64,000 nt of DNA from Pseudomonadota bacterium (GTDB lineage: Bacteria; Pseudomonadota; Gammaproteobacteria; Burkholderiales; JAJZQI01), in contig JAJZQI010000003.1 in the NCBI GenBank assembly GCA_021851875.1, positions 1 to 64,000 of the forward strand, read 5' to 3'. The translations under genes and the position numbers were made by a program. Positions 1 through 12,548 of this stretch are shown piece after piece. The notes under the pieces were generated by a model. The model saw nothing but the letters and a program-made list of their open reading frames with translations, was not told where the DNA came from and ran no database searches. The number at the start of each line of letters is the position of its first letter. The first letter of the stretch is position 1.

Positions 1-51
1 GCGCGAGGCTGTTTGCTGGTTGTGTAGGTTTCTCCTCCGGAACGTGAGCCA

Positions 52-67
52 TGTAACGTTCCTTACA
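52..67. promoter_or_regulatory. NifA upstream activator site for nifB
   Basis: The sequence is TGT-N10-ACA (TGTAACGTTCCTTACA) with 5-bp inverted arms TGTAA/TTACA, an exact match to the NifA activator consensus. Its centre lies about 85 bp upstream of the -24 GG of the nifB promoter, the usual distance for NifA acting through a DNA loop. Confidence 0.8.
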
Positions 68-110
68 AAAGCGACAACAATTTTCATTCTTTTGTTGTCG
101 CTTTTTTCTT
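67..110 (+). terminator. Rho-independent terminator of the gene left of the window
   Basis: A 14-bp perfect inverted repeat (AAAAGCGACAACAA at 67-80, TTGTTGTCGCTTTT at 92-105) has an 11-nt loop and runs into a T-rich tract. It should end transcription from the upstream gene outside the window. It lies between the NifA site and the nifB promoter, so it separates the nifB unit from read-through. Confidence 0.8.
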
Positions 111-142
111 TTAAATCCCTGTAAAAACAGTTAATTATCTTG

Positions 143-160
143 TTGGCACGGGGGTTGCTC
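143..160 (+). promoter_or_regulatory. Sigma-54 (-24/-12) promoter of the nifB operon
   Basis: TTGGCACGGGGGTTGCTC matches the sigma-54 consensus: GG at 145-146 and GC at 157-158 are separated by exactly 10 nt, with the TGGCAC and TTGC blocks intact. nifB starts about 50 bp downstream. Together with the upstream NifA site this indicates NifA-RpoN control of the operon under nitrogen-fixing conditions. Confidence 0.9.
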
Positions 161-210
161 TATACCTTGCATCGCCCCATCGCGGGCACCACGTCAAGGG
201 ACCTTCGGAA

Positions 211-1782
211 ATGGAACAGCAAATCAGCGCAGCTACGCAAGCATTGCAGTCAGGCAAGACAGCAGAAGAGATCATGCAGGAAGTCGCCGAACACAAAGGA
301 TGTGGTACCAGTGGCGGCAGCGGCAAGGCTAGCTGCGGCTCCAGCGCCGGCAGCGGCGATCTGGCACCGGAAATTTGGGAAAAGGTGAAGAACCATCCCT
401 GCTACAGCGAAGAAGCACACCATCACTATGCCCGCATGCACGTTGCCGTGGCGCCGGCTTGTAACATCCAGTGCAACTACTGCAACCGCAAATACGATTG
501 CGCCAATGAATCCCGTCCCGGTGTGGTGAGTGAAAAACTGACCCCGGAAGTGGCTGCCAAGAAAGTGCTGGCCGTGGCTTCCACCATCCCGCAAATGACC
601 GTTCTGGGGATTGCTGGTCCGGGCGATTCACTGGCCAACCCGGCCAAGACCTTCAAGACCTTCGAGCTGATTTCCCAGGTGGCACCGGACATCAAGCTGT
701 GCCTGTCCACCAACGGTCTGGCACTGCCGGATCACGTGCAGGAAATCAAGAAATACAACGTTGACCACGTGACCGTCACCATCAATATGGTTGACCCGGA
801 AGTGGGCGCCAAGATCTATCCGTGGATTTTCTGGAAGAACAAGCGTCTGACCGGTATCGAGGCTGCACGTATTCTGCATGAGCGCCAGATGCTCGGCCTG
901 GAAATGCTGACCGCCGAAGGCATCCTGGTGAAGGTGAATTCCGTCATGATCCCGGGCATCAACGACAAGCATCTGGTGGAAGTGAACAAGGCGGTGAAGA
1001 GCCGTGGTGCCTTCCTGCACAACATCATGCCGCTGATTTCCGCGCCTGAGCACGGCACCGTGTTCGGTCTGAACGGCCAGCGCGGCCCCACCGCGCAGGA
1101 ACTGAAAGCCCTGCAGGACGAGTGCGAAGGCGAAATGAACATGATGCGCCACTGCCGTCAGTGCCGTGCTGACGCCGTGGGTCTCTTGGGTGAAGACCGT
1201 TCTTCCGAATTTACCGTGGAAAAAATCATGGAAATGGAAGTCGAGTATGACCTGGAAGGCCGTCAGAAATACCAGGAAGCGGTGGAAGCCGAGCGTCAGA
1301 AAGAATCCGAAGCCAAGCACGCCGAACTGGCCGATCTGGACGACGAATTCGTCGACGTGAAGATGCTGGTTGCCATCGCCACCAAGGGCGGCGGTCGCAT
1401 CAACGAACACTTCGGTCACGCCAAAGAGTTCCAAATTTTCGAACTGTCTACCCAGTCCGCCAAGTTTGTCGGTCACCGCCGCGTCGATCTGTACTGCCAG
1501 GGTGGCTACGGCGATGAAGATTCACTGGAAACTGTGATTCGTGCCATCAACGACTGCCATGCCGTGTTCGTGGCCAAGATCGGCGGTTGCCCCAAGGCCG
1601 ACCTCAAGGCTGCCGGCATCGATGCAGTGGAAGACTACGCGCATGAGTTCATTGAACAGTCGGCGCTGCGTTACTTCAAGGATTACCTCGGCAAGATCAA
1701 GAGCGGTGAAATCGTCCACGTTGAGAAGGGCGACGCCACCATTCGCCAAGGTGCCTTTACGCAGGAATCGGCTGCAGCCTGA
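211..1782 (+). CDS. nifB: NifB, FeMo-cofactor biosynthesis radical SAM protein
   Basis: NifB makes NifB-co, the [8Fe-9S-C] precursor of nitrogenase cofactors, by SAM-dependent carbide insertion. The 523-residue product has the radical SAM motif CX3CX2C (C84, C88, C91, in NIQCNYC) and the later [11 protein letters not shown] block. A C-terminal NifX/NafY-like domain (from about residue 385, [11 protein letters not shown]) is the proteobacterial two-domain form. It is the first gene after the sigma-54 promoter and NifA site, and is followed by a dedicated ferredoxin. Start at 211 is the first in-frame ATG after the promoter and gives the usual family length. Confidence 0.97.
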
Positions 1783-1817
1783 TTTGTTAAATGTAGTAAC
1801 TGATAGGAGTCCAGAAA

Positions 1818-2039
1818 ATGGCTTACAAAATCGTCACCTCGCAATGTACCGCCTGCTCGGCTTGCGAACCGGAATGCCCGAACAACGCCATCCGTGAAAA
1901 GGACGGCACTTTCGTGATCATCGCCAGCAAATGCACCGAGTGCATCGGCTACTTCGATGACGCGCAGTGTGTAGCTGTGTGTCCGGTGGACGACACCTGC
2001 ATTATCGATACCAGCGTGCCGCGCTACGAGGCGGCGTAA
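1818..2039 (+). CDS. fdxN: FdxN-type 2[4Fe-4S] ferredoxin
   Basis: A 73-residue ferredoxin with two cluster motifs: C10-C13-C16-C20 (CX2CX2CX3C followed by P) and C39-C42-C51-C55 (CX2CX8CX3C). The 8-residue insertion in the second motif is typical of nif-linked bacterial ferredoxins. A GGAG-type ribosome site precedes the ATG. Directly downstream of nifB, its known family role is electron supply for NifB-co assembly; another cysteine at position 61 is probably not a ligand. Confidence 0.9.
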
Positions 2040-2052
2040 CAAGGGGCAAGTC

Positions 2053-2472
2053 ATGGAACTGGCAATTACACCTTCAGCGGCAAAATTTATTTCGCGGATG
2101 ATCCGCTTTAACGGCACCGGGCCGGAGTCCGGCTTCCGGCTGAGTGTTTCCCCCGGCGGCTGTTCCGGCTTGTCGTCCGAGTTCACGGTTGAAGCAGGGC
2201 CGCTGGATGGCGATGCACTGATTGTGGTGGATGGCGTCCGGCTGTTCCTGCCGGCGGAAAGCCGCATTCTGCTGCATGGCGCAACCATTGATTTTGCCGA
2301 CACGGCCATGAGTACCGGTCTGACGTTCAAGACGGCTACGCCGGGTTCCTGTGGTTGCAGCAGTTCCAGCAGCTCCAGTACTGAGTCCAGTGGCAGCTGC
2401 AGCAGCTCGGCGGGTAGCACGGCGCCGAGTGTTGCCAGCGTTGCCATCAGTTCGATCGGCCGCAAGGCCTGA
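2053..2472 (+). CDS. IscA/HesB-like Fe-S carrier with Ser/Cys-rich tail
   Basis: The first 100 residues are an A-type iron-sulfur carrier domain: C37 in GGCSGL and the C-terminal pair C100/C102 in SCGCS are the three expected ligands. Members beside nifB or nifS are called nif-IscA or HesB and are thought to deliver Fe-S clusters to nitrogenase components. After residue 102 there is an unusual tail of nearly pure serine with a further cysteine at 116 (SSSSSSSTESSGSCSSS), then a short Ala/Ser/Val end. The tail is not part of the usual IscA fold. The gene is 13 bp from fdxN and in the same transcription unit. Confidence 0.85.
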   Translation: MELAITPSAAKFISRMIRFNGTGPESGFRLSVSPGGCSGLSSEFTVEAGPLDGDALIVVDGVRLFLPAESRILLHGATIDFADTAMSTGLTFKTATPGSCGCSSSSSSSTESSGSCSSSAGSTAPSVASVAISSIGRKA

Positions 2473-2481
2473 GGGGGTGTC

Positions 2482-2997
2482 ATGCTGGGGATGGATCTCG
2501 CCGAAATGGAATCTGCCTGTCTGGGCGGAGGTTTGCCTCCGGCTGCAGAGGAGCAGATTCGCCTGGCTGGCAAGTTCTATCACCAGTATGACCTCGCCCA
2601 CGATTATCTGGCGCGGGCGCAGCAACTGGCGCCCGGTCATCTGGCGGTATTGATCGGTTTTTACCGCTTTTATTTCTACCAGAACCGCTTGTCCGAGGCG
2701 CGTGAAGTGGCGCAGCAATGCCTGCATCATGCCGCCAGAGCGCTGGGTCTGGCGACCGACTGGCGGGATATCCAGCCCGGGGATGCCGACTTCAGTCAGT
2801 GGGATTCGGTTTTGCCACGGTTTTACCTGTTCACCCTCAAGGGCTACGGCTATCTGAGCCTGCGTCTGGGTGACATGGAAACGGGTGAAAGCATCATCGC
2901 CAAACTGCGCGAACTCGATCCGCTTGATCGCTTGGGCGGTTCTACTCTGAGCAACGTGCTGGCAAGGATCGGCCATGACGACTATGCCGACGACTGA
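2482..2997 (+). CDS. TPR-like nif-cluster protein
   Basis: A soluble, helix-rich protein of 171 residues. Residues 30-75 (AGKFYHQYDLAHDYLARAQQ, then LAPGHLAVLIGFYRFYF) have the spacing of a tetratricopeptide repeat, and a second helical pair covers about 110-160. No catalytic motif is seen. It overlaps the next gene (LRV) by 23 bp, so translation is probably coupled. Position between the IscA-like and LRV genes suggests a scaffold role in Fe-S or nitrogenase maturation; this is inference from context. Confidence 0.7.
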   Translation: MLGMDLAEMESACLGGGLPPAAEEQIRLAGKFYHQYDLAHDYLARAQQLAPGHLAVLIGFYRFYFYQNRLSEAREVAQQCLHHAARALGLATDWRDIQPGDADFSQWDSVLPRFYLFTLKGYGYLSLRLGDMETGESIIAKLRELDPLDRLGGSTLSNVLARIGHDDYADD

Positions 2998-3796
2998 GGC
3001 GGGCGAAGAAAACATCGCCACCGTCGACTGGCTGGGCCAGCCGCTCGACTGCAGCCGCTGCAGCCATCAGGCGCTGCTGGCTGAAGGCAAATGCCGGCTG
3101 GGCCATGCCTGCGTGCAGGATCGCTACGCCAAGCGCATAGACCGGTTCTTTCACTGGAATCGGGATCTGGCCAATGCCTACCTGTCGCACCCTTACTTCG
3201 AGGTGCGCGCGGTGGGCGCCAAATACGCCAGTATTTTCCACTTGGGCAAGCTGGTGAAGGACCCGGATGAAACTGTTCGCATGAGCGTGGCCATGCGCCT
3301 GCCGGAGAAATACCTGTTGGGCATGCGCAATGATCCGCACCGCGAGGTGCGCATCCGCGTGGCATCGCGGTTGACTGGGGGAGAACTGGCCCCCATGCGG
3401 TTCGATGAGGATTACTACGTGCGCATGCTGGTGGCGCGTCGGTTGCCGCCGGACATGCTGATTCTCATGCTGGACGATCCCGAACCGTTGGTTCGGGTTG
3501 AGGTGGCCCGCCGCATTCCGCTGCAGCGCTTGGCGTCGCTGGCGGCCGATCCTGATGGGGCCGTGCGTCTGGCTGTGGCCGAGCGGTTGGAGCCGGAGCA
3601 ACTGGTGCCGTTGCTGCACGATGAAGACTGGCGCATCCGCTACCAGGCAGTCGAACGGGTCAGCGTGGTGCATTTGTGGCCCATTCAGAATGACAGCGAC
3701 CCTGAAGTGCGCCGGCTGATACGTGAACGGTTGGGCTTGATAGACGAACAGAAAGAAAGGCAGGCAGGCAATGGCAAAGATTTCGCGCGACAGTGA
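2975..3796 (+). CDS. LRV protein: leucine-rich repeat variant with [4Fe-4S] domain
   Basis: The N-terminal 50 residues carry C26, C29, C40 and C46 (CX2CX10CX5C), the cluster domain of the LRV protein known from the Azotobacter vinelandii nif region. The rest (about 65-265) is a run of roughly eight 24-residue repeats of the form DP(D/E)xxVRxxVAxRL, the alternating-helix LRV solenoid. The function in nitrogen fixation is not established; an Fe-S protein with a protein-binding solenoid fits a chaperone or sensing role. It overlaps both neighbours. Confidence 0.88.
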   Translation: MTTMPTTEAGEENIATVDWLGQPLDCSRCSHQALLAEGKCRLGHACVQDRYAKRIDRFFHWNRDLANAYLSHPYFEVRAVGAKYASIFHLGKLVKDPDETVRMSVAMRLPEKYLLGMRNDPHREVRIRVASRLTGGELAPMRFDEDYYVRMLVARRLPPDMLILMLDDPEPLVRVEVARRIPLQRLASLAADPDGAVRLAVAERLEPEQLVPLLHDEDWRIRYQAVERVSVVHLWPIQNDSDPEVRRLIRERLGLIDEQKERQAGNGKDFARQ

Positions 3797-4121
3797 TGTT
3801 GTCGAGCTGAACAGTCCGCCGATATTCAACTACGGCGACAAGGTGCGCTCACGCAAGACCATCCGCAACGACGGCACTTTCTCTGGCCGCGACATCGGCG
3901 AGGTGCTGGTGAAGAAGGGCGATTACGGCTACGTCACCAGTATCGGTTCGTTCCTGCAGCAGTTCTATATCTACGGTGTCGACTTCGTCGAATACGGTTA
4001 CAGCGTGGGTATGCGTGGCAAGGAACTGGAACCGTTCGACCCGCCGGCCGAGGTGGCGGCAGAAACTTCAACGGAAGCAGAAGGAGAGCAGCATGATCGA
4101 CCAGCGACTGCCCAAGTATGA
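3771..4121 (+). CDS. nifZ: NifZ, first copy
   Basis: A 116-residue NifZ-family protein. It has the family core FNYGDKVRSRKTIRNDGTF...GEVLVKKGDYGYV and the following YGVDFVEYGY. NifZ helps form the second P-cluster pair of the MoFe protein together with NifH. The acidic tail after residue 90 is variable. The start overlaps the LRV gene by 26 bp, and its own 3' end overlaps a second NifZ gene by 29 bp, so these are translationally linked. Confidence 0.9.
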   Translation: MAKISRDSDVVELNSPPIFNYGDKVRSRKTIRNDGTFSGRDIGEVLVKKGDYGYVTSIGSFLQQFYIYGVDFVEYGYSVGMRGKELEPFDPPAEVAAETSTEAEGEQHDRPATAQV

Positions 4122-4338
4122 TTGGGGCCTGAAAGTTAAAACCACCATCGACCTGTTCAACGACGGAAGCTACCCGGACCGTGAGCCGGAAGCGCTGCTG
4201 GCGGCAGAGGGGTCGGAAGGCGAAATCGTGCAAGTAGGCACGATCGAGGAACACAACGTGCCAATTTACCTGGTGGAATTTACCGACGGTGCAGTCGTCG
4301 GCTGTCTGGAAGAGGAAATCACGCCGGCCATGGCGTGA
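4093..4338 (+). CDS. nifZ: NifZ-like protein, second copy
   Basis: The 81-residue product from ATG 4093 (MIDQRLPKYDWGLKV) has a NifZ core: GLKVKTTIDLFNDGSYPD, then GEIVQVG and YLVEFTDGAVVGCLEEEI. A GGAGAGC ribosome site just upstream decides this start over the longer open frame from 3976. It is shorter and diverged from the copy before it. Tandem NifZ-like genes may have split roles; that is inference. Confidence 0.82.
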   Translation: MIDQRLPKYDWGLKVKTTIDLFNDGSYPDREPEALLAAEGSEGEIVQVGTIEEHNVPIYLVEFTDGAVVGCLEEEITPAMA

Positions 4339-4360
4339 GACAGTGCAAAGGATTCGTGTC

Positions 4361-4711
4361 ATGGCCCGCTTTCCCGCCCCCGTCGCTTTTGGCCGTCAGC
4401 CCAATGAGGTGGACAAGCGCCGCATCGAGAAGGCGCTGCAGGGCCGCAAGCGTTATCGCTATGTGACACCACAAGTGCAGTACGTTGACCGGGGGTATCG
4501 CATCGTCAGTCCCTGTTGCTCGCGCAACATCGATCCTGACGGCGGGATTGTCGATGTGGCACGCATCGAATATGTCGAAAGTACGCGTTACTGGTTTCTT
4601 TACCGCAAGAACCACGACGAAGGGCTGTGGATGCTGCATGGCGAGTTCACCACGCTGGATCGCCTGCTGGCCACATTGAATGAAGATCCATTGAGGGTAT
4701 TCTGGCAATGA
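4361..4711 (+). CDS. Conserved nif-cluster protein, possibly DUF3024-like
   Basis: From ATG 4361 the product has 116 residues. The body (RRIEKALQGRKRYRYVTPQV, then YRIVSPCCSRNIDPDGGIVD and a W/F-rich end with DPLRVFWQ) is reminiscent of DUF3024 proteins, but this is by eye only. A CC pair (SPCCSRN) could bind metal. The longer frame from 4289 would overlap nifZ and is less likely. Its stop overlaps the nifS-like start (ATGA), implying coupled translation and a nif function that is not known. Confidence 0.6.
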   Translation: MARFPAPVAFGRQPNEVDKRRIEKALQGRKRYRYVTPQVQYVDRGYRIVSPCCSRNIDPDGGIVDVARIEYVESTRYWFLYRKNHDEGLWMLHGEFTTLDRLLATLNEDPLRVFWQ

Positions 4712-5853
4712 ACCACTACATCTATCTGGATAACAACGCCACCAGTCGGCCGAGCGAAGAGTGCATCGAGGCCGTTTATGCCAGCATGCATGGTGGCTAC
4801 GGTAACCCTTCAAGCAAACACCTGTTTGGCGACAATGCGCGCCAGCTGGTCAACGATGCGCGCAAACAGGTCGCTGCCCTCATCAATGCCACCCCGGCTG
4901 AAATCGTCTTTACCTCCGGTGCCACCGAATCGAACTACATGGCCATTATGGCCGCACGGGAGCTGAATCCCGGCCGCGATCATGTCGTGTTAAGTGCCAT
5001 CGAGCACCCATCCGTGCTGGCGCTGGCCCGTACACTCGAACAGCAGGGCATGCGCGTCAGTCTTGCGCCGGTCGATGCGCACGGGCGTGTCGATCTGACT
5101 GCCTTGAGTGCTTTGTTGACCGAGGACACCGCTTTGCTCAGCCTGATGTGGGCCAACAATGAGACTGGCGTGTTGCAGCCGCTTGAGCAAGCACTCGGCA
5201 TGGCGCATGCGCGCGGCATTCTGGTACACAGCGATGCCGTACAGGCAGTCGGCAAAGTGTCAGTCGATATCACCGCTCTGCCGCTCGACTTGATGTCGTT
5301 CACCGCCCACAAGATGCACGGGCCGATGGGGGTGGGCGCACTGTTCGTACGTAAAGGCATCAAGCTGCCGGCGCTGTTCGATGGCCACCAGGAGCGGCGT
5401 CGTCGCGGCGGTACGGAAAACGTGCCAGGCATCGTGGGTTTCGGCGTGGCCTGCGAACTGGCGCGCGAACAACTGGCGGAGGAAGCCGTCACCATCGCAC
5501 GTCTGCGCGACCGCCTGGAGCAGGGCATTGTGCGCGACGTCCCCTTTGCCAGCATCAACGGCGCCAAGGCGCCACGCATTCCCAATACCACCAACGTTGC
5601 CTTCGGCACGCTGCCGGCGGAGGCACTGCTTGCCCGCATGGAAAAGGCCGGTATTTACGCTTCGCAGGGTGCCGCCTGCGCCGCCGGTCAGGTCGAACCG
5701 TCGCATGTGCTGCTGGCCATGGGTCTCAGTGAAGCAACGGCGTTAGCCACCATCCGTTTTTCCCTCAGTCATGAAACCACCGACGAAAAGATCGATCAGG
5801 TGTTGCGCATCCTGCCCGAGCTGATTGGTGCCATGGCGGGAATGGCGGCCTAA
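4708..5853 (+). CDS. nifS: NifS-like cysteine desulfurase
   Basis: A PLP enzyme of 381 residues that releases sulfur from cysteine for Fe-S assembly. The PLP lysine is K202 in SFTAHKMHGP, the aldimine histidine lies in SAIEHPSVL, and the persulfide cysteine is C324 in QGAACAAGQVEPSHVL. It belongs to the NifS/IscS class with the short active loop. It overlaps the previous gene by 4 bp. Because no nifU lies next to it, it may be the nif-specific copy paired with the IscA-like carrier, or a second paralogue beside a nifUS pair outside the window. Confidence 0.9.
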   Translation: MNHYIYLDNNATSRPSEECIEAVYASMHGGYGNPSSKHLFGDNARQLVNDARKQVAALINATPAEIVFTSGATESNYMAIMAARELNPGRDHVVLSAIEHPSVLALARTLEQQGMRVSLAPVDAHGRVDLTALSALLTEDTALLSLMWANNETGVLQPLEQALGMAHARGILVHSDAVQAVGKVSVDITALPLDLMSFTAHKMHGPMGVGALFVRKGIKLPALFDGHQERRRRGGTENVPGIVGFGVACELAREQLAEEAVTIARLRDRLEQGIVRDVPFASINGAKAPRIPNTTNVAFGTLPAEALLARMEKAGIYASQGAACAAGQVEPSHVLLAMGLSEATALATIRFSLSHETTDEKIDQVLRILPELIGAMAGMAA

Positions 5854-5884
5854 TTTTTGAATTAACCACGACACAGGAAACATC

Positions 5885-6094
5885 ATGAAGATCATGCTGC
5901 GCAAAACCACGGACGGACTGTCAGTTTACGTTCCGAAAAAAGATCTGGAGGAACCCGTCGTCAGCATGGACAAGGATTCCATGTGGGGCGGTGTGGTCAC
6001 TCTGGCCAATGGCTGGCGCCTGGAACTGCCGGATATGGCCGATGACACGCCACTGCCGATCACTGTTGATGCCAAGAAACTCGGGGAGGAATAA
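5885..6094 (+). CDS. nifT: NifT/FixU protein
   Basis: A 69-residue protein matching NifT/FixU: MKIMLRKTTDGLSVYVPKKD at the N-terminus, then MWGGVVTLANGWRLELP. This small beta-rich protein is found in most nif operons and its role is unresolved; mutants usually still fix nitrogen. It has a good ribosome site (ACAGGAAAC) and is 31 bp after nifS. Confidence 0.9.
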   Translation: MKIMLRKTTDGLSVYVPKKDLEEPVVSMDKDSMWGGVVTLANGWRLELPDMADDTPLPITVDAKKLGEE

Positions 6095-6097
6095 ACC

Positions 6098-6367
6098 ATG
6101 TTAGCCCAGGATGTACTGCAAGCCATTGCCACCGACTTGAACGGCAGCGCGTCCATCCGGGCGCAGCTGGCCGCCATGCGTACGCGCCACCCCGGAATCA
6201 CCTTCAGTTGCTGCGACGCGAGCGACATGTCAGGTGAAGAGCCTTATCTGAGTCACTCCGATTTCAATATCTATCTCATCAACAGCAATGGTCATTGCTG
6301 GCACATGACGGGTGATCCGGAAGAAGCCACCGGTGTGGTGATAGCTGAAAAGGCGGTGAAGAAATGA
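6098..6367 (+). CDS. Small nif-cluster protein (DUF6129-like)
   Basis: An 89-residue soluble protein with the recognisable run HPGITFSCCDASDMSGEEPY and a later INSNGHCWHMTGDPEEATGV. I associate this pattern with DUF6129, a family that occurs mostly in proteobacterial nif loci; no function is known. Cysteines (CC pair and GHCW) and histidines are potential metal ligands. It starts 3 bp after nifT and overlaps the next gene by 4 bp, so it is in the operon. Confidence 0.65.
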   Translation: MLAQDVLQAIATDLNGSASIRAQLAAMRTRHPGITFSCCDASDMSGEEPYLSHSDFNIYLINSNGHCWHMTGDPEEATGVVIAEKAVKK

Positions 6368-7518
6368 CACCCGATACCATTTTTCTCACCGATCCGGACA
6401 TATCGGCCAACGAACTGTCCACCCTGGAATCCGTACTGAAGACCCCGCGCCTGAGTATGGGGCCGGTGACCGAGCTGTTCGAAAACACCTTTGCCAGCTA
6501 CGTCGGCAGGAAATACGCTGTGGCCGTGTCCAGCGGCACCATCGGTATGTGGCTGGTCTTGCACGCCTACGGTATCGGGCCGGGGGACGAAGTGATCACC
6601 TCGCCGATGGCGTGGACACAAATTGCCCACGCCATCACGCTGTGCGGTGCCAAGCCCGTACTGGCGGATATCGACTATTGGACCGTCACACTCTCGCCGC
6701 TGAAAGTGGCGGAAAAAATCACCGCCAAAACCCGCGCCATCCTGGCAGGCAATACCAATGGCCACCCGGCCCATTGGGAAGGACTCACGGCGCTGGCAAA
6801 AGAACATAAATTGCTGTTGCTGGAAGATTCCAGCGAAGCCATCGGCTCGCGCTACGGCGGCAAAATGGTGGGTAATTTCGGCGATTGTGCCGTATTCGAT
6901 TTTTCCCAGCCCAGCGCGCTCACCTGTGGCGAAGGCGGCATGATCCTGACCGACGACATCGAGATCGCCCGCAAATTGCGCTATATGCGCAATCGCAAAC
7001 TGGAAGACCGTTTTTCTGCGCCAGTCACCGCTTTCCCGCCGCTCCAGGCAGGGATCAGCGAAGTCACCGCGGCACTGGGTTTTGCCCAACTCTCACGCAT
7101 TGAGCAGATTCTGGAAAACCGCAAGAAAGTCGAAGCGTTCTACCTGAATCATGTGCAAACCTTCGAGGGCATCAAGCCGCCTTATATCGCACCCGAAGTG
7201 GATGAAGTGCACTGGTTTCTTTACGTCGTGCACCTCGGCACACGCTTTTCCAAGAGCAGTCGCGACGCCATCCTCAGCGACCTCAAGCTGCATGAGGTGG
7301 AGGCGTATGCAATGTGCCAGCCCATGCACCTGCAGTACCACTATCAGCAGCAGTACGGCTATAAAAAGACCGATTTCAAGGTGGCCGAAAAAATTGCGGA
7401 CCGCGCCCTGGCGCTGCCGTTCCACGCACATCTCGAAGAAGATGAAGTGGGATTTGTCGTTGAAACTGCCAAGGACGCTTCAGTGAACGTCGGGGCAGGT
7501 GCAGCGATTTATCTGTAG
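6364..7518 (+). CDS. DegT/DnrJ/EryC1-fold protein lacking the PLP lysine
   Basis: The 384-residue product has the full DegT aminotransferase layout: the GGP-like start (SMGPVTELFENTFA), AVAVSSGTIGMWLVL, GDEVITSPMAWTQIA, KPVLADID, LLLLEDSSEA with D155 for the PLP ring nitrogen, and GEGGMILTD. At the position of the catalytic lysine (normally SxxxTKNxxTGEGG) the sequence reads DFSQPSALTCGEGG, so S184 replaces Lys. The usual Q of the DxxQA motif is also changed (DSSEA). It cannot act as a normal transaminase. It may bind PLP or a sugar without turnover, or catalyse another reaction. Translationally coupled to the preceding nif gene. No sugar-biosynthesis genes are nearby. Confidence 0.82.
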   Translation: MTPDTIFLTDPDISANELSTLESVLKTPRLSMGPVTELFENTFASYVGRKYAVAVSSGTIGMWLVLHAYGIGPGDEVITSPMAWTQIAHAITLCGAKPVLADIDYWTVTLSPLKVAEKITAKTRAILAGNTNGHPAHWEGLTALAKEHKLLLLEDSSEAIGSRYGGKMVGNFGDCAVFDFSQPSALTCGEGGMILTDDIEIARKLRYMRNRKLEDRFSAPVTAFPPLQAGISEVTAALGFAQLSRIEQILENRKKVEAFYLNHVQTFEGIKPPYIAPEVDEVHWFLYVVHLGTRFSKSSRDAILSDLKLHEVEAYAMCQPMHLQYHYQQQYGYKKTDFKVAEKIADRALALPFHAHLEEDEVGFVVETAKDASVNVGAGAAIYL

Positions 7519-7550
7519 TACCCCTAAATCAAACATAAGGAAGACGCACT

Positions 7551-7763
7551 ATGACAACCGACACAATGATTCATGTAGTTTTTGCCCCTGACGGAACTGT
7601 GGTCAACATCGCCCACACGCCCACCAACGTGGAGCCGCAAAAATGGTTCAATTTTCTGACACGCAATACGACCAACGCCTACGAGGCCCTGTCCGGCGGA
7701 CGCGGAGTCTTCCGCCTGCCCACCGACGATCTGGGTCGACTGCAAAGCGCCTACGCAGCGTAA
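7551..7763 (+). CDS. Small nif-cluster protein of unknown function
   Basis: A 70-residue protein with an ATAAGGAAG ribosome site. It has a beta-rich N-terminus (IHVVFAPDGTVVNIA), a central aromatic helix (PQKWFNFLTRNTTNAYEAL) and a final GGRGVFRLPTDDLGRL. No cysteine, signal peptide or membrane segment. I do not recognise a named family. It lies between the DegT-like gene and the [2Fe-2S] ferredoxin and is probably co-transcribed with the former; a strong hairpin follows it. Confidence 0.6.
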   Translation: MTTDTMIHVVFAPDGTVVNIAHTPTNVEPQKWFNFLTRNTTNAYEALSGGRGVFRLPTDDLGRLQSAYAA

Positions 7764-7793
7764 TGCAGCTTGTGGTCGTGTGGCTGATATGCC

Positions 7794-7820
7794 GCGTCCT
7801 GAGCCGTTTGCTCAGGACGC
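7794..7820. other. Perfect 11-bp hairpin in the intergenic space
   Basis: GCGTCCTGAGC and GCTCAGGACGC pair perfectly around the 5-nt loop CGTTT. No T-tract follows, so this is not a classical terminator. It lies in the 116-bp gap between the 70-residue gene and the ferredoxin. It could be an RNA processing or stability element setting different transcript levels for the two halves of the operon. Confidence 0.6.
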
Positions 7821-7879
7821 AGGCCAAGTTTCCCCGTTAACCAACCAACCACACTATCAACTTTAGAAGGATGAGTATC

Positions 7880-8185
7880 ATGCCTAACATCAATGTTAAA
7901 CCCAGTGGCAACGTTGTTGCAGCAGCCAACGGCAGCACCATTCTGGCAGCCCTGCTGGCCGCCGGCGAACCCATCGCGCACAAGTGCGACGGCAAGGCCG
8001 AGTGCGGTTCCTGCCATATCTTCCTGCTGGAAGGTCGTAAAGGTGTGTCCAAGATCACCCCCGCTGAAAACGCCAAACTCGACAGCATCGTCGGTGTCGG
8101 TTCCAAATCCCGTCTCGCCTGCCAGGTTACCCTGGGCGACGAAGATGTGACGGTGGAATTGCTCGGCTTTGCCTCGGGTTTCTAA
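7880..8185 (+). CDS. [2Fe-2S] ferredoxin, adrenodoxin/ISC-type cysteine spacing
   Basis: Start 7880 is chosen because AGAAGGA at 7865-7871 lies 8 nt upstream; ATG 7871 would overlap that site. The 101-residue product has C36, C42, C45 and C81 (CX5CX2CX35C), the spacing of ISC/adrenodoxin ferredoxins, in HKCDGKAECGSCHIF and SRLACQV. The closing DEDVTVELLG recalls the Shethna-type FeSII protein, which shields nitrogenase from oxygen, but it is shorter. Roles in electron transfer to nitrogenase or in protection are both possible. Probably fdxD-like. Confidence 0.85.
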   Translation: MPNINVKPSGNVVAAANGSTILAALLAAGEPIAHKCDGKAECGSCHIFLLEGRKGVSKITPAENAKLDSIVGVGSKSRLACQVTLGDEDVTVELLGFASGF

Positions 8186-8206
8186 ACTCTCAGACTGGAG
8201 ACGGCC

Positions 8207-9043
8207 ATGTCCGCCATCGAAACGATCATTAACGGCCTTGAACAGGGTCAAATCATTCCTTACCTCGGTTCCGCCGTACTTGAACTGGTCCCCGGTGGTA
8301 GTCCCGTGGCCGCCTCGCCCGAAGCACTGGTAGCAGAGCTGACAGCCAAGGTGTCCGTGCCCTTCAAGGTGCGTAAACAACTGACCGGCTCTGCCCAGTT
8401 CATTGAGAACTTCAAACACCGCAAGACCATTGTGAAACTGATGGACGAGTCGTTCGCTGCATCGGTTCCACCGACCGCCTTGCAAAGTTATCTTGCCACG
8501 CTTGGCTTGCCACTGATTGTCTCCACCTGGTATGACAACTCCATGGAAAATGCCATGCAGGGTCAAAGCAGCTGGGGTATCGCCCAGGGGCTGTCGCAGT
8601 CGGAACATTTTGGCGAATGGTACGGCTGGTATCACCCGGACGGCAGCCTGGCCAGCGCAGCGGATGCGGACAGCTGGAAAACCCTGCTGTACCATCCGAT
8701 CGGCTCGATCAGCCCGGCGCATAATTATCTGGTGTCCGATTCCGATTACGTTGAAGTGCTGACAGAAATCGATATCCAGACACCGATCCCGGAAAAGGTG
8801 AAAGCTATTCGCAGTGGACGTCATTTCCTCTTCCTCGGCTGCTCCTTCAAGAGCCAGCTGGAAAGAACCTTTGCTCGTCAGATCATGAAGCGCTCTTCTG
8901 ATAAACATTGGGCTGTCATCAGCGGCGAATTGAGTCGCAATGAGAAACGCTTCCTGGAAGAGCAGAACATTACGCCAATCGATATGAAACTGGCCGATTT
9001 TGCCGAGCTGTTGCTGCAAAAACAGCCAGCCGTGGCTGCCTGA
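8207..9043 (+). CDS. SIR2-like domain protein in the nif cluster
   Basis: A 278-residue protein with the layout of the SIR2_2 group: GQIIPYLGSAVLEL (normally a GAG loop) at 15-27, IVSTWYDNSMENAM at 104-117 (normally TTNYDxxxExA), LLYHPIGSIS at 161-169 with H163 kept, and GRHFLFLGCSFKSQLE at 204-219. The NAD-contacting Asn of the TNxD motif is replaced by W108 and the glycine loop is altered (GSA). Loss of NAD hydrolysis, or a changed ligand, is likely. SIR2_2 proteins are best known as NADases in phage defence; here the gene follows a nif ferredoxin by 21 bp and precedes a strong terminator. Its role in nitrogen fixation is unknown. Confidence 0.75.
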   Translation: MSAIETIINGLEQGQIIPYLGSAVLELVPGGSPVAASPEALVAELTAKVSVPFKVRKQLTGSAQFIENFKHRKTIVKLMDESFAASVPPTALQSYLATLGLPLIVSTWYDNSMENAMQGQSSWGIAQGLSQSEHFGEWYGWYHPDGSLASAADADSWKTLLYHPIGSISPAHNYLVSDSDYVEVLTEIDIQTPIPEKVKAIRSGRHFLFLGCSFKSQLERTFARQIMKRSSDKHWAVISGELSRNEKRFLEEQNITPIDMKLADFAELLLQKQPAVAA

Positions 9044-9071
9044 AACAGCCCGCAATACAAATCCCCTCTTG

Positions 9072-9107
9072 CGCCGTTCCCGCCTTTTGGGCGGGGCGGT
9101 TTTTTTG
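9072..9107 (+). terminator. Rho-independent terminator ending the nifB-side genes
   Basis: GC-rich inverted repeat (CCGTTCCCGCC ... GGCGGGGCGG, loop TTTTGG) followed by seven T. The T-tract is on the plus strand, so it ends transcription after the SIR2-like gene. The opposing FmdB operon has no T-tract here. Confidence 0.85.
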
Positions 9108-9151
9108 TTTTGGGAAACAGCAGTCGGTTTTCGAGGTGAAGCGGAAAAAGC

Positions 9152-9382
9152 TTAGAACTTCGGTTTTTCCGATTTGCTGAAATTGCTGAAATGGCCTTCC
9201 TTGTTGGCTTGGGCACGCGCTCGCTGGATGATTTGTTTGGTCTTGCCCTGAGGAGCGGTTAATGACACAAGTTTTTCCAGATCCTCGCTGCCACATTTGG
9301 GGCAGACCAGTCGCGTATCGCTGCGCACCAGCAGCTCAAACGTTTCATCGCAGGCTTTGCAGTGGTAGTCGTATAAGGGCAT
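9152..9382 (-). CDS. FmdB-family zinc ribbon protein
   Basis: A 76-residue protein starting MPLYDYHCKACDETFE and having two CXXC pairs (HCKAC and CPKCGSEDLEKL), the FmdB zinc ribbon. The tail is basic (KTKQIIQRARAQANKEG). FmdB proteins often accompany amidase or other enzyme genes and are presumed regulators or assembly factors. It is third in the leftward operon driven from 10.4 kb, 10 bp after the HepT-like gene, with AGGA upstream of its ATG. Confidence 0.85.
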   Translation of the reverse strand: MPLYDYHCKACDETFELLVRSDTRLVCPKCGSEDLEKLVSLTAPQGKTKQIIQRARAQANKEGHFSNFSKSEKPKF

Positions 9383-9392
9383 GGTCTAATTC

Positions 9393-9746
9393 CTACAAGG
9401 TCATTTCGAACAGTTTGGGCTGATTGTGGCGGTAAATCCTCAGCCAGGTTAACGTGGCCGGAATCAATGACCGCACCGCAAACCACAGTGCGTCGTCGCC
9501 GATCAGGCCACCCTTGGCAAGATTGCTGGCGCAGGCACGCCAGCCTTCCCAGTCAACTTCGGGCAAACTGGCTTTGCTTTCTGATGGCATATGCGCCACC
9601 GTGTCGCAAATGGTGTCCACCTTGCGGCGCACCTCCATACGTGTCAGACGGGACTTGAGGAATTCATCCACCTCAAGTCCCTCCGTCAACGTCAGGATAT
9701 CGACGCCGGCCTGTTCGATGATGGACAGCATGGCACCCAGTAGCAT
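9393..9746 (-). CDS. HepT/DUF86-like protein without the RNase motif
   Basis: The 117-residue sequence follows the DUF86/HepT pattern: MLSIIEQAGVDILTLTEGLE, VDEFLKSRLTRMEVRRKVDT, then LPEVDWEGWRACASNLAKGG and DALWFAVRSLIPATL. In HepT toxins the block after PEIxW is RNxLVHxY, giving the RX4-6H RNase motif. Here residues 71-81 have no histidine (ASNLAKGGL), so RNase activity is unlikely. The usual partner, a MNT nucleotidyltransferase, is absent. It starts 2 bp after the upstream gene. Family assignment is by eye; the fit is good along the whole length. Confidence 0.6.
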   Translation of the reverse strand: MLLGAMLSIIEQAGVDILTLTEGLEVDEFLKSRLTRMEVRRKVDTICDTVAHMPSESKASLPEVDWEGWRACASNLAKGGLIGDDALWFAVRSLIPATLTWLRIYRHNQPKLFEMTL

Positions 9747-9748
9747 GC

Positions 9749-10339
9749 TTACACCGGGCGGTTGGCGGCCAGATCGCGAATCGGGCCCATGATCTTCAGG
9801 CCTTCTTCGTAAGACAGCTGCGGAAAGTCGGCAGAGAAGGTGGCGGCGGTCTCGGCAATCTTGTCCAGTTTGCCGGCAGTGTCCAGCTTCTTCAGGTCGT
9901 TCTTTTCCAGGTACAACAATTCAAGCAGTTCGTTGTACACGGTGGACTCGAAAATCGGCAGTACATAGAACGTTGCACCACCGTAGGGCACCGTGTACTT
10001 GGTGGACATGTCGATGTTGTCGCAGAACAGGAAGTACTTGCCGTCCGGCAGCAATTCCTCCTGCAGCACTTCAACCAACGGCTTCAGATATTCGAAAGAC
10101 AACAGAAAGCAGGACAGAAATGGGATGCCTGGCTTGCCGGCATCGGCCACCATCATCACCTGGTCGGCACTGATTTCGGGTGGACGTGCTTCGTCGGCAC
10201 GCTGCTCGGCAAATTTGATGGCGATGTCGCCGCGAAAGCCGTATCGGCCGGCGACGTGGGTTTTGTCCTTGAATACCGGATTCAACAGACGCTTGGCAGC
10301 TTCCAGGGTTGCCAGACTCGATTCAGTAAAGGTGGCCAT
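9749..10339 (-). CDS. Unknown protein, first gene of a NifA-controlled operon
   Basis: A 196-residue soluble protein with an AGGA ribosome site. Features: an N-terminal helical part (SLATLEAAKRLLNPVF), GRYGFRGDIAIKF, a hydrophobic middle (GIPFLSCFLLSFEYLKPLVEV), KYFLFCDNIDMSTKYTVPYG, YVLPIFESTVYNELLELLYL and a helical C-terminus. No signal peptide, cofactor motif or family was recognised. It is preceded by a -24/-12 promoter at 10407-10422 and a NifA site, so expression during nitrogen fixation is expected. Confidence 0.7.
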   Translation of the reverse strand: MATFTESSLATLEAAKRLLNPVFKDKTHVAGRYGFRGDIAIKFAEQRADEARPPEISADQVMMVADAGKPGIPFLSCFLLSFEYLKPLVEVLQEELLPDGKYFLFCDNIDMSTKYTVPYGGATFYVLPIFESTVYNELLELLYLEKNDLKKLDTAGKLDKIAETAATFSADFPQLSYEEGLKIMGPIRDLAANRPV

Positions 10340-10406
10340 GATCTAGTTCCTGAGTAATGACGAAAATGTCGTAAAAGCGGATAGTTTTGTCCGCAAGAGG
10401 GGTGGT

Positions 10407-10422
10407 AGCAAAGACCAGGCCA
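10407..10422 (-). promoter_or_regulatory. Sigma-54 promoter of the leftward three-gene operon
   Basis: Read on the minus strand the sequence is TGGCCTGGTCTTTGCT: GG and GC are 10 nt apart, with TGGC and TTGC blocks kept. It is about 70 bp upstream of the start at 10339, and the NifA palindrome at 10501-10516 is some 85-95 bp further upstream, the classical spacing. An AT-rich stretch (10425-10480) between them, with a near match to an IHF site around 10452-10464, could provide the bend. Confidence 0.75.
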
Positions 10423-10500
10423 TCTGTATTAGTTATAAAATAGTCATTATTAAACAGTTGGTTGAGTTAAATTTTCGGCCGATTCAGAGGCTTGCTTTCT

Positions 10501-10516
10501 TGTCGCTTTTGCGACA
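10501..10516. promoter_or_regulatory. Perfect NifA palindrome between divergent operons
   Basis: TGTCGCTTTTGCGACA is TGT-N10-ACA. With flanking bases the inverted repeat is TTGTCGC-TTTT-GCGACAA (10500-10517), perfectly symmetric. It is the only such site in the 286-bp divergent region and has sigma-54 promoters on both sides, so one NifA dimer site may serve both operons. Confidence 0.8.
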
Positions 10517-10549
10517 ATCGGATGGCGTGGTGGGGTATTTCCGCACAGT

Positions 10550-10566
10550 TGGGCCTGATAATTGCT
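10550..10566 (+). promoter_or_regulatory. Sigma-54 promoter of clpP-clpX
   Basis: TGGGCCTGATAATTGCT has GG (10552-10553) and GC (10564-10565) 10 nt apart and an intact TTGCT -12 block; the -24 block is weaker (GGCC instead of GGCA). It lies about 60 bp before clpP. The NifA site is only about 45 bp upstream of the -24 element, closer than usual, so control could be weaker than on the other side. Confidence 0.65.
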
Positions 10567-10625
10567 TTACCTTGGTCAGATGGTTCGGTTTTCCTTAAAT
10601 TCACGACAAAAGAGGCATTGTTTGT

Positions 10626-11273
10626 ATGATTTCCTTCAAAGAATCCATGATGCCCGGTGCTTCAGCTTACGATGAGCCAGTCGGTCTGGGCCTTGTTCCG
10701 ATGGTGGTTGAGCAGAGCGGTCGGGGCGAACGTGCCTACGATATTTATTCGCGCCTGCTGCGCGAACGCGTCATCTTCCTCGTCGGGCCGGTAAACGATG
10801 CCGTCGCCAATCTGGTGGTCGCGCAATTGCTGTTTCTGGAGTCGGAAAACCCCGACAAGGACATCCATCTGTATATCAATTCTCCCGGCGGGTCGGTTAC
10901 AGCCGGCCTGTCGATCTACGACACCATGCAGTTCATCAAGCCCGACGTCAGCACCCTGTGCATCGGTCAGGCGGCCAGCATGGGGGCGTTCCTGCTTACC
11001 GCGGGAGCCAAGGGCAAGCGTTTTTGCCTGCCCAATTCGCGGGTCATGATTCACCAGCCGCTGGGCGGTTTCCAGGGGCAGGCTTCCGACATTGCCATTC
11101 ACGCCAAGGAAATATTGGCGCTCAAATCCCGTCTTAATGAAATGCTGGCCATTCATACCGGCCAGTCCATCGAGACCATCGAGCGCGATACCGACCGCGA
11201 CAATTTCCTCAGTGCTGAGGCGGCGGTGGGCTACGGCCTGGTCGATCAATTGCTGATTAAACGTGAAGTGTAG
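10626..11273 (+). CDS. clpP: ClpP serine protease, nif-linked copy
   Basis: A 215-residue ClpP with the complete catalytic triad: S118 (GQAASMGAF), H143 (VMIHQPLGG) and D192 (TDRDNF), at the spacing of E. coli ClpP. The oxyanion loop SPGGSV is intact. The N-terminus (to about residue 30) is longer than usual and may contain a propeptide. There is no tig gene before it and no lon after it, unlike the housekeeping clpP-clpX locus, and a sigma-54 promoter with NifA site precedes it. It is therefore probably a second, nitrogen-fixation-specific protease. Confidence 0.93.
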
Positions 11274-11282
11274 GGGGTTATC

Positions 11283-12548
11283 ATGTCCGACAGAGAATAT
11301 CGCGAACCGCAAGACAAACAACTGCACTGCACTTTCTGCGGCAAGAGCCAGCACGAGGTGCGCAAGCTCATCGCCGGCCCGTCCGTCTTCATCTGCGACG
11401 AATGCATCTCCCTGTGCAACGACATCCTGCAGGAAGAGGTGCAGAGCAATGCCGCCGATGGGGACGACAGTCTGCCGGTGCCGCGCGAAATTTGCGCCAC
11501 GCTGGACCAGTACGTCATCGGCCAGTCGCCGGCGAAAAAAGCCCTGGCCGTGGCCGTTTACAACCACTACAAGCGCATCCGCTGCAATGCCAAGGCGGAA
11601 GAGGGCGGGGTTGAGCTGTCCAAGTCCAACATCCTGCTGATCGGACCCACCGGTTCCGGCAAGACTTTGCTGGCGCAGACGCTGGCCCGCCTGCTGAACG
11701 TGCCGTTTGTGATCGCCGACGCCACCACGTTGACCGAAGCCGGCTACGTCGGCGAGGATGTGGAAAACATCGTCCACAAACTGCTGCTGGCCTGTGATTA
11801 CGATGTGGAAAAGGCCCGTCATGGCATCATCTACATCGATGAAATCGATAAGATCGCCCGCAAATCAGACAGTGCCTCCGTCACCCGCGACGTGTCGGGC
11901 GAGGGCGTGCAGCAGGCGCTGCTCAAGCTCATCGAAGGCACCGTCGCTTCCGTGCCGCCGCAAGGCGGGCGCAAGCATCCGAATCAGGACTTCGTGCAAA
12001 TCGACACCAGCGAAATCCTCTTCATCTGCGGTGGCGCCTTTTCCGGGCTGGAAAAAGTCATTCGCAACCGCACGGAAAAGAGCGGCATCGGTTTCGGTGC
12101 CAAGGTCAAATCGGTGGACGACAAGGTGCGCGATTTCAGCCGCCTGAAAACCGCCGAGCCGGAAGACCTCATGCGCTTCGGTCTGATTCCCGAATTCGTG
12201 GGTCGTCTGCCGGTACTGGCCGTGCTGGAAGAACTGGACGAAGCAGCCCTTATCCAGATTCTCACCGAGCCGAAAAACGCGCTGACACGCCAGTTTGCCC
12301 GTCTGTTCGAAATGGATAACGTGGAACTGGAATTCCGCGAAGGCGCGCTCAAGGCCATCGCCCAGAAAGCCCTGGCGCGCCGTACCGGCGCCCGCGGCCT
12401 GCGGTCGATTGTCGAGCACGCGCTGCTCGACACCATGTTCGACCTGCCGTCCATGACGGACGTCAGCAAGGTGGTGGTGGACGAAAACACCATCCGCAAC
12501 AATGCTGCCCCACGGCTGGTTTACAAGGAGCAGTTGAAGGCGGGTTGA
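11283..12548 (+). CDS. clpX: ClpX unfoldase, nif-linked copy
   Basis: A 421-residue ClpX: N-terminal zinc-binding C4 domain (C16, C19, C38, C41), Walker A GPTGSGKT, pore loop GYVG, Walker [14 protein letters not shown] loop (GGRKHPNQD) and the ClpP-docking loop IGFGA. All motifs for an active ClpXP are present. It follows clpP by 9 bp. In Azotobacter vinelandii a nif-cluster ClpX paralogue (ClpX2) lowers NifB and NifEN levels; the same role is likely here, with the difference that this copy has its own adjacent clpP. Confidence 0.94.

Follow-up and report, generated by a model that had tools for sequence, protein, structure and literature searches.

Gene Content of the Locus

The window, i.e., the whole stretch of DNA that was analysed (64,000 nucleotides), contains a 286-bp intergenic region located between p196 (gene position 9749-10339, minus strand) and clpP (starting at 10626, plus strand). 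The leftward operon consists of p196, which is its first gene and encodes a nif-cluster protein, p117 (9393-9746, minus strand), which encodes a small nif-cluster protein with a HepT-like match below the cut-off, and a gene for an FmdB-like putative zinc-ribbon protein of 76 aa (9152-9382, minus strand), a family name given from the sequence. An operon of three genes had been recognised here in the first-pass annotation and described as unknown. The number of genes agrees, and the description can be sharpened: p196, p117 and the FmdB-like gene recur in betaproteobacterial nif clusters. Relatives of p196 sit in many such clusters, often beside SIR2-like, ferredoxin, p117-like and FmdB-like genes. 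A SIR2-like domain protein is also encoded within the nif cluster of the window (8207-9043), where it adjoins a 2Fe-2S ferredoxin, and this pair recurs in other betaproteobacterial nif clusters.

A search of Pfam and NCBIfam gave no match for the p196 protein, and its comparison across 41 sequences revealed 51 invariant columns. The AlphaFold model built with these 41 sequences had a pLDDT of 88.4 and a pTM of 0.86. Foldseek found no match to this model at E <= 0.001 and a second look gave no Z above 3.4, while sequence and fold searches of the PDB returned nothing convincing. Judging by the predicted structure, a new fold is neither indicated nor excluded.

On the opposite side of the intergenic region, clpP (10626-11273, plus strand) and clpX (11283-12548, plus strand) are both intact and are separated by 9 bp. 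Both are second copies: the housekeeping tig-clpP-clpX-lon cluster is a separate locus on contig C38, and the clpX of the window is 73% identical to the copy found there. ClpP and ClpX had full-length domain and family matches, and the zinc finger, Walker A motif and IGF loop of ClpX and the Ser-His-Asp residues of ClpP were read in the translations. Intact genes with these motifs are consistent with a functional ClpXP.

The assembly comprises 52 contigs, and a second nifB-to-p196 block was found on contig C18, with 89.5% nucleotide identity over 10.4 kb (window 3-10346; L138:6291-16648). This block stops at the contig end, 7 bp short of the p196 start codon on its upstream side, and is uninformative on the upstream region of the second p196 copy; the last 102 bases are identical to those of the window. 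The C18 block could stem from a sister strain that was binned together with this genome or reflect a true duplication. On C18, nifB is closely preceded by the end of a nifA-like gene. In the window, the nifB promoter (52-159, plus strand; TGTAACGTTCCTTACA, TGGCACGGGGGTTGCT) served for comparison. A terminator-like hairpin (68-110; AAAAGCGACAACAA ... TTTTGTTGTCGCTTTTTT) lies between its NifA site and the promoter and is present in the C18 copy too.

Putative NifA Site in the Intergenic Region

The intergenic region houses the palindrome TGTCGCTTTTGCGACA (10501-10516, no strand assigned), predicted to be a NifA upstream activator site. The first-pass annotation had described it as a perfect TGT-N10-ACA palindrome, which holds for the extended form as well: the palindrome reads TGTCGC-N4-GCGACA, and its perfect arms reach 7 bp (TTGTCGC-TTTT-GCGACAA, 10500-10517). 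The plain TGT-N10-ACA motif occurs at chance level across the window (10 found versus 9.65 expected), whereas the form with 6-bp arms is present in two copies in the 2.68-Mb genome versus 0.16 expected under uniform base composition. A chance origin of the palindrome is thus ruled out for the extended form and not for the plain one. The half-site TGTCG is common to this palindrome and the nifV promoter of the same genome. The other genomic TGTCGC-N4-GCGACA copy (L176:1501-1516; G000:C13:46795-46810) is located within about 75 bp upstream of a Rieske-like gene of 113 aa, and the only sigma-54-like element near it is poorly placed, with a 15-bp gap.

A degenerate NifA-like site of doubtful function (TGTCGTAAAAGCGGAT, 10367-10382, plus strand) differs from the palindrome at four positions and lacks the ACA half. 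The spacer between the NifA site and the leftward promoter (10423-10500, no strand assigned) is 78 bp long, has an AT content of 68% and contains IHF-like sequences that deviate at one position; the spacer on the right is 34 bp long with 44% AT. No intrinsic terminator was found in the region.

Leftward Promoter

A sigma-54 -24/-12 element (TGGCCTGGTCTTTGCT) was found on the minus strand at 10407-10422, with a correct GG-N10-GC arrangement and two mismatches to the consensus TGGCACNNNNNTTGCW; its profile score was attained at 9 of 127,970 positions. The predicted start lies near 10396, giving a leader of about 57 nt and placing the NifA site near -112. The spacing between the NifA site and the -24 element, 88 bp centre to centre, falls inside the 70-177 bp range of the comparison promoters.

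A genome-wide search for TGG-N8-TTGC with TGT-N10-ACA 60-90 bp upstream gave nine matches, six of them ahead of nif genes (nifH, nifV, iscS, nifB on two contigs, and p196), and the reversed-pattern control gave 0 matches. A comparison of p196 relatives was consistent with this. The upstream sequence was long enough in 93 relatives, and in 30 of these a sigma-54 element was preceded by a NifA site at a distance of 20-200 bp, versus 4.3% of random stretches drawn from these loci; these are related genomes and hence not independent trials. In many of the remaining relatives, transcription may come from a gene further upstream; at L041, for instance, p196 follows closely on the end of a TPR gene. 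The minus-strand promoter proposed in the first-pass annotation is therefore well founded in its match to the consensus, in its conservation before p196 relatives and in the nif-enriched pattern.

Candidate Rightward Promoter

The candidate sigma-54 -24/-12 element for clpP-clpX (GGGCCTGATAATTGCT, 10551-10566, plus strand) also has a correct GG-N10-GC arrangement and carries three mismatches to the consensus. The plus-strand element reported earlier is thus present, in a weaker form than the leftward one: with GG and GC fixed, 5-7% of such stretches contain by chance an element with at most three mismatches, and about 5% reach its profile score once the closest training sequence is omitted. 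The predicted start, near 10577, would leave a leader of about 49 nt and put the centre of the NifA site near -68.

The likeness of this element to other promoters speaks in its favour. It is identical to the leftward element at 12 of 15 positions, a match equalled by one other 15-mer only among the 127,972 in the window. In addition, it matches 14 of 15 positions of the promoter of a p196 relative (28% identical) in genome G240 (locus L016), with P of about 1e-4 by a uniform-base estimate allowing for 30 promoters, and the left and right elements are the only ones in the window that match the G240 promoter at 13 or more positions.

The distance between the NifA-site centre and the GG centre is 44 bp, which is below that of every comparison promoter (70-177 bp). 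The spacing was 84-177 bp (median 102) in 28 pairs from p196 relatives and 70-152 bp at the other nif promoters of the genome, including 86 bp at nifB; the right element is about four helical turns closer to its NifA site than that of nifB. That the rightward promoter is unusually near the site, as had been remarked before, is evident from these values.

A search of the region for a sigma-70 or sigma-32 promoter for clpP revealed nothing above shuffled sequences. Since clpPX heads its own divergent unit, it needs a promoter in this region. The same clpP-p196 arrangement was not found in other genomes among the 67 loci compared, and a direct footprint of the right promoter is accordingly missing. 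On balance, the rightward promoter is likely to be real.

Second ClpX Copies and Their Ancestry

Phylogenetic analysis revealed that the nif-linked ClpX of the window joins the housekeeping ClpX of G565 and of family f225 (100/98), i.e., of another betaproteobacterial lineage, and not the housekeeping copy of its own genome. A second tree gave the same grouping at 92/99 with the bootstrap unsettled, and the placement, on a long branch, is not beyond doubt. Of the two p196 relatives that are closest, one (78%) is also from G565, in keeping with a common origin but no proof of it. No ClpX closer than the housekeeping copies was found among the relatives, in the family (one other genome) or in 399 genomes of the order.

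A survey of 369 genomes across the class, in which ClpX was counted at E <= 1e-100, found at least two ClpX in 14 genomes besides this one, and in 10 of these 14 the second ClpX adjoins nifV, nifS, nifN or nifZ-like genes. Genes similar to p196 co-occur with a second ClpX beyond expectation (5 of 14 genomes versus 5 of 354; Fisher P 8e-6), in a test of non-independent genomes with categories picked after the data had been seen. The nif-adjoining second copies of gammaproteobacteria form their own clade (100/100, long branch), 51-55% identical to the window ClpX. Unlike these copies, the window ClpX is placed among housekeeping sequences, in a tree whose bootstrap is not fully settled, and comes as a complete clpP-clpX pair.

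G136, from the same class and another order, likewise has a complete clpPX adjoining nif genes (nifHDK-nifEN-nifX, iscS). Its nif-linked ClpX, unlike that of the window, groups with its own housekeeping copy, which indicates a separate recruitment. The 900 bp upstream of its nif-linked clpP contained no NifA site and one sigma-54 element with three mismatches, 881 bp upstream. G136 also has a third ClpX (L231; G136:C1:3348553-3349788), which belongs to the gammaproteobacterial nif-linked clade and has no nif gene within about 10 kb. Taken together, the trees suggest at least three origins of nif-linked ClpX in the sample, two of them as a clpPX pair.

Discussion

There are precedents both for nif control of Clp and for divergent nif promoters. 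The reported gene order in A. vinelandii is nifWZM-clpX2, and ClpX2 of this organism is described as regulating NifB/NifEN levels (Martinez-Noel 2011, cited in PMC3916325 and elsewhere). Like the window ClpX, it is a second ClpX tied to nitrogen fixation, as are the gammaproteobacterial nif-linked copies, whose clade was equated with ClpX2 by gene neighbourhood, A. vinelandii ClpX2 being absent from the tree. On this basis, the clpPX of the window appears to have been recruited independently of the known nitrogen-fixation ClpX2. In Azoarcus sp. BH72, clpX-clpP (azo2070-azo2071) is reported to be up-regulated in nitrogen fixation and controlled by NifA (PMC3916325). This is what it has in common with the proposal made here; the status of a second, nif-linked copy and the shared divergent control region were read for the clpPX of the window. 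Divergent nif promoters, in front of different genes, are known for nifF/nifLA of Klebsiella pneumoniae, where, to judge by the title, activator binding sites were studied (Minchin 1988, cited in PMC8381380).

The sites, their spacing, the conservation of the leftward promoter, and the second-copy status and ancestry of clpX could be read from the sequence with the qualifications given above. The first-pass annotation had placed both operons in the nif regulon. Sequence and comparative evidence strongly supports this for the leftward operon (30 of 93 relatives, six nif promoters) and makes it probable for clpPX (matches of 12/15 and 14/15). The 286-bp region would therefore probably be a bidirectional NifA/sigma-54 control region. 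Since a NifA site is palindromic and its activator reaches the promoter by looping, such a site can act in both orientations. Once bound to the one palindrome at 10501-10516, NifA could contact sigma-54 polymerase to its left and right; p196-p117-fmdB, starting at about 10396 on the left, and clpP-clpX, starting at about 10577 on the right, would then be transcribed during nitrogen fixation. The outcome would be a ClpXP made only during nitrogen fixation, with a probable role in trimming nitrogenase assembly proteins or controlling their quality, as Azotobacter ClpX2 is reported to have for NifB/NifEN. The first-pass annotation had raised a different response of the two sides because of their spacing; the spacing does differ, and an unequal strength of the two sides is plausible.

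The weakness of the right element and its closeness to the NifA site also suit another arrangement, in which the leftward promoter alone is real and uses the NifA site for p196-p117-fmdB, and clpPX has some other type of promoter, weak or off consensus. It would accord with the fact that Clp genes are often driven by stress or sigma-70 promoters. Nevertheless, no sigma-70 or sigma-32 match exceeded shuffles in the region, and the right element resembles both the left one and the promoter of the G240 p196 relative, which makes this explanation rather unlikely. Considerably less probable is that both sigma-54 promoters are real and clpPX depends mainly on another enhancer-binding protein, or on NifA at a second weak site such as 10367-10382. 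That site lies 178 bp from the right element, to which the main site is very close, but it is the degenerate one without the ACA half, whereas the main palindrome is perfect. Finally, the palindrome could bind a different regulator, with the two sigma-54-like elements present by chance; the sole other palindrome with 6-bp arms does precede a Rieske-like gene with no well-placed sigma-54 element. Against the genome-wide enrichment of the site and promoter pattern at nif genes and its conservation before p196 relatives, this explanation is very improbable.

If the bidirectional NifA/sigma-54 reading is correct, it may tentatively be proposed that complete ClpXP machines came under nitrogen-fixation control repeatedly and independently of ClpX2, with the window copy acquired from a different betaproteobacterial lineage, perhaps along with the nif cluster, and that a bidirectional NifA enhancer with unequal arms (88 and 44 bp) gives the two operons different strengths or thresholds. 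The components are familiar, and the protease appears to have been recruited independently of ClpX2. The uneven spacing offers a natural test of the minimum distance between a NifA site and a sigma-54 promoter. If the proposal holds, p196 would be a widespread gene of the nif regulon with no function assigned, and regulated proteolysis would be a recurrent part of nitrogenase biogenesis, beyond an Azotobacter quirk.
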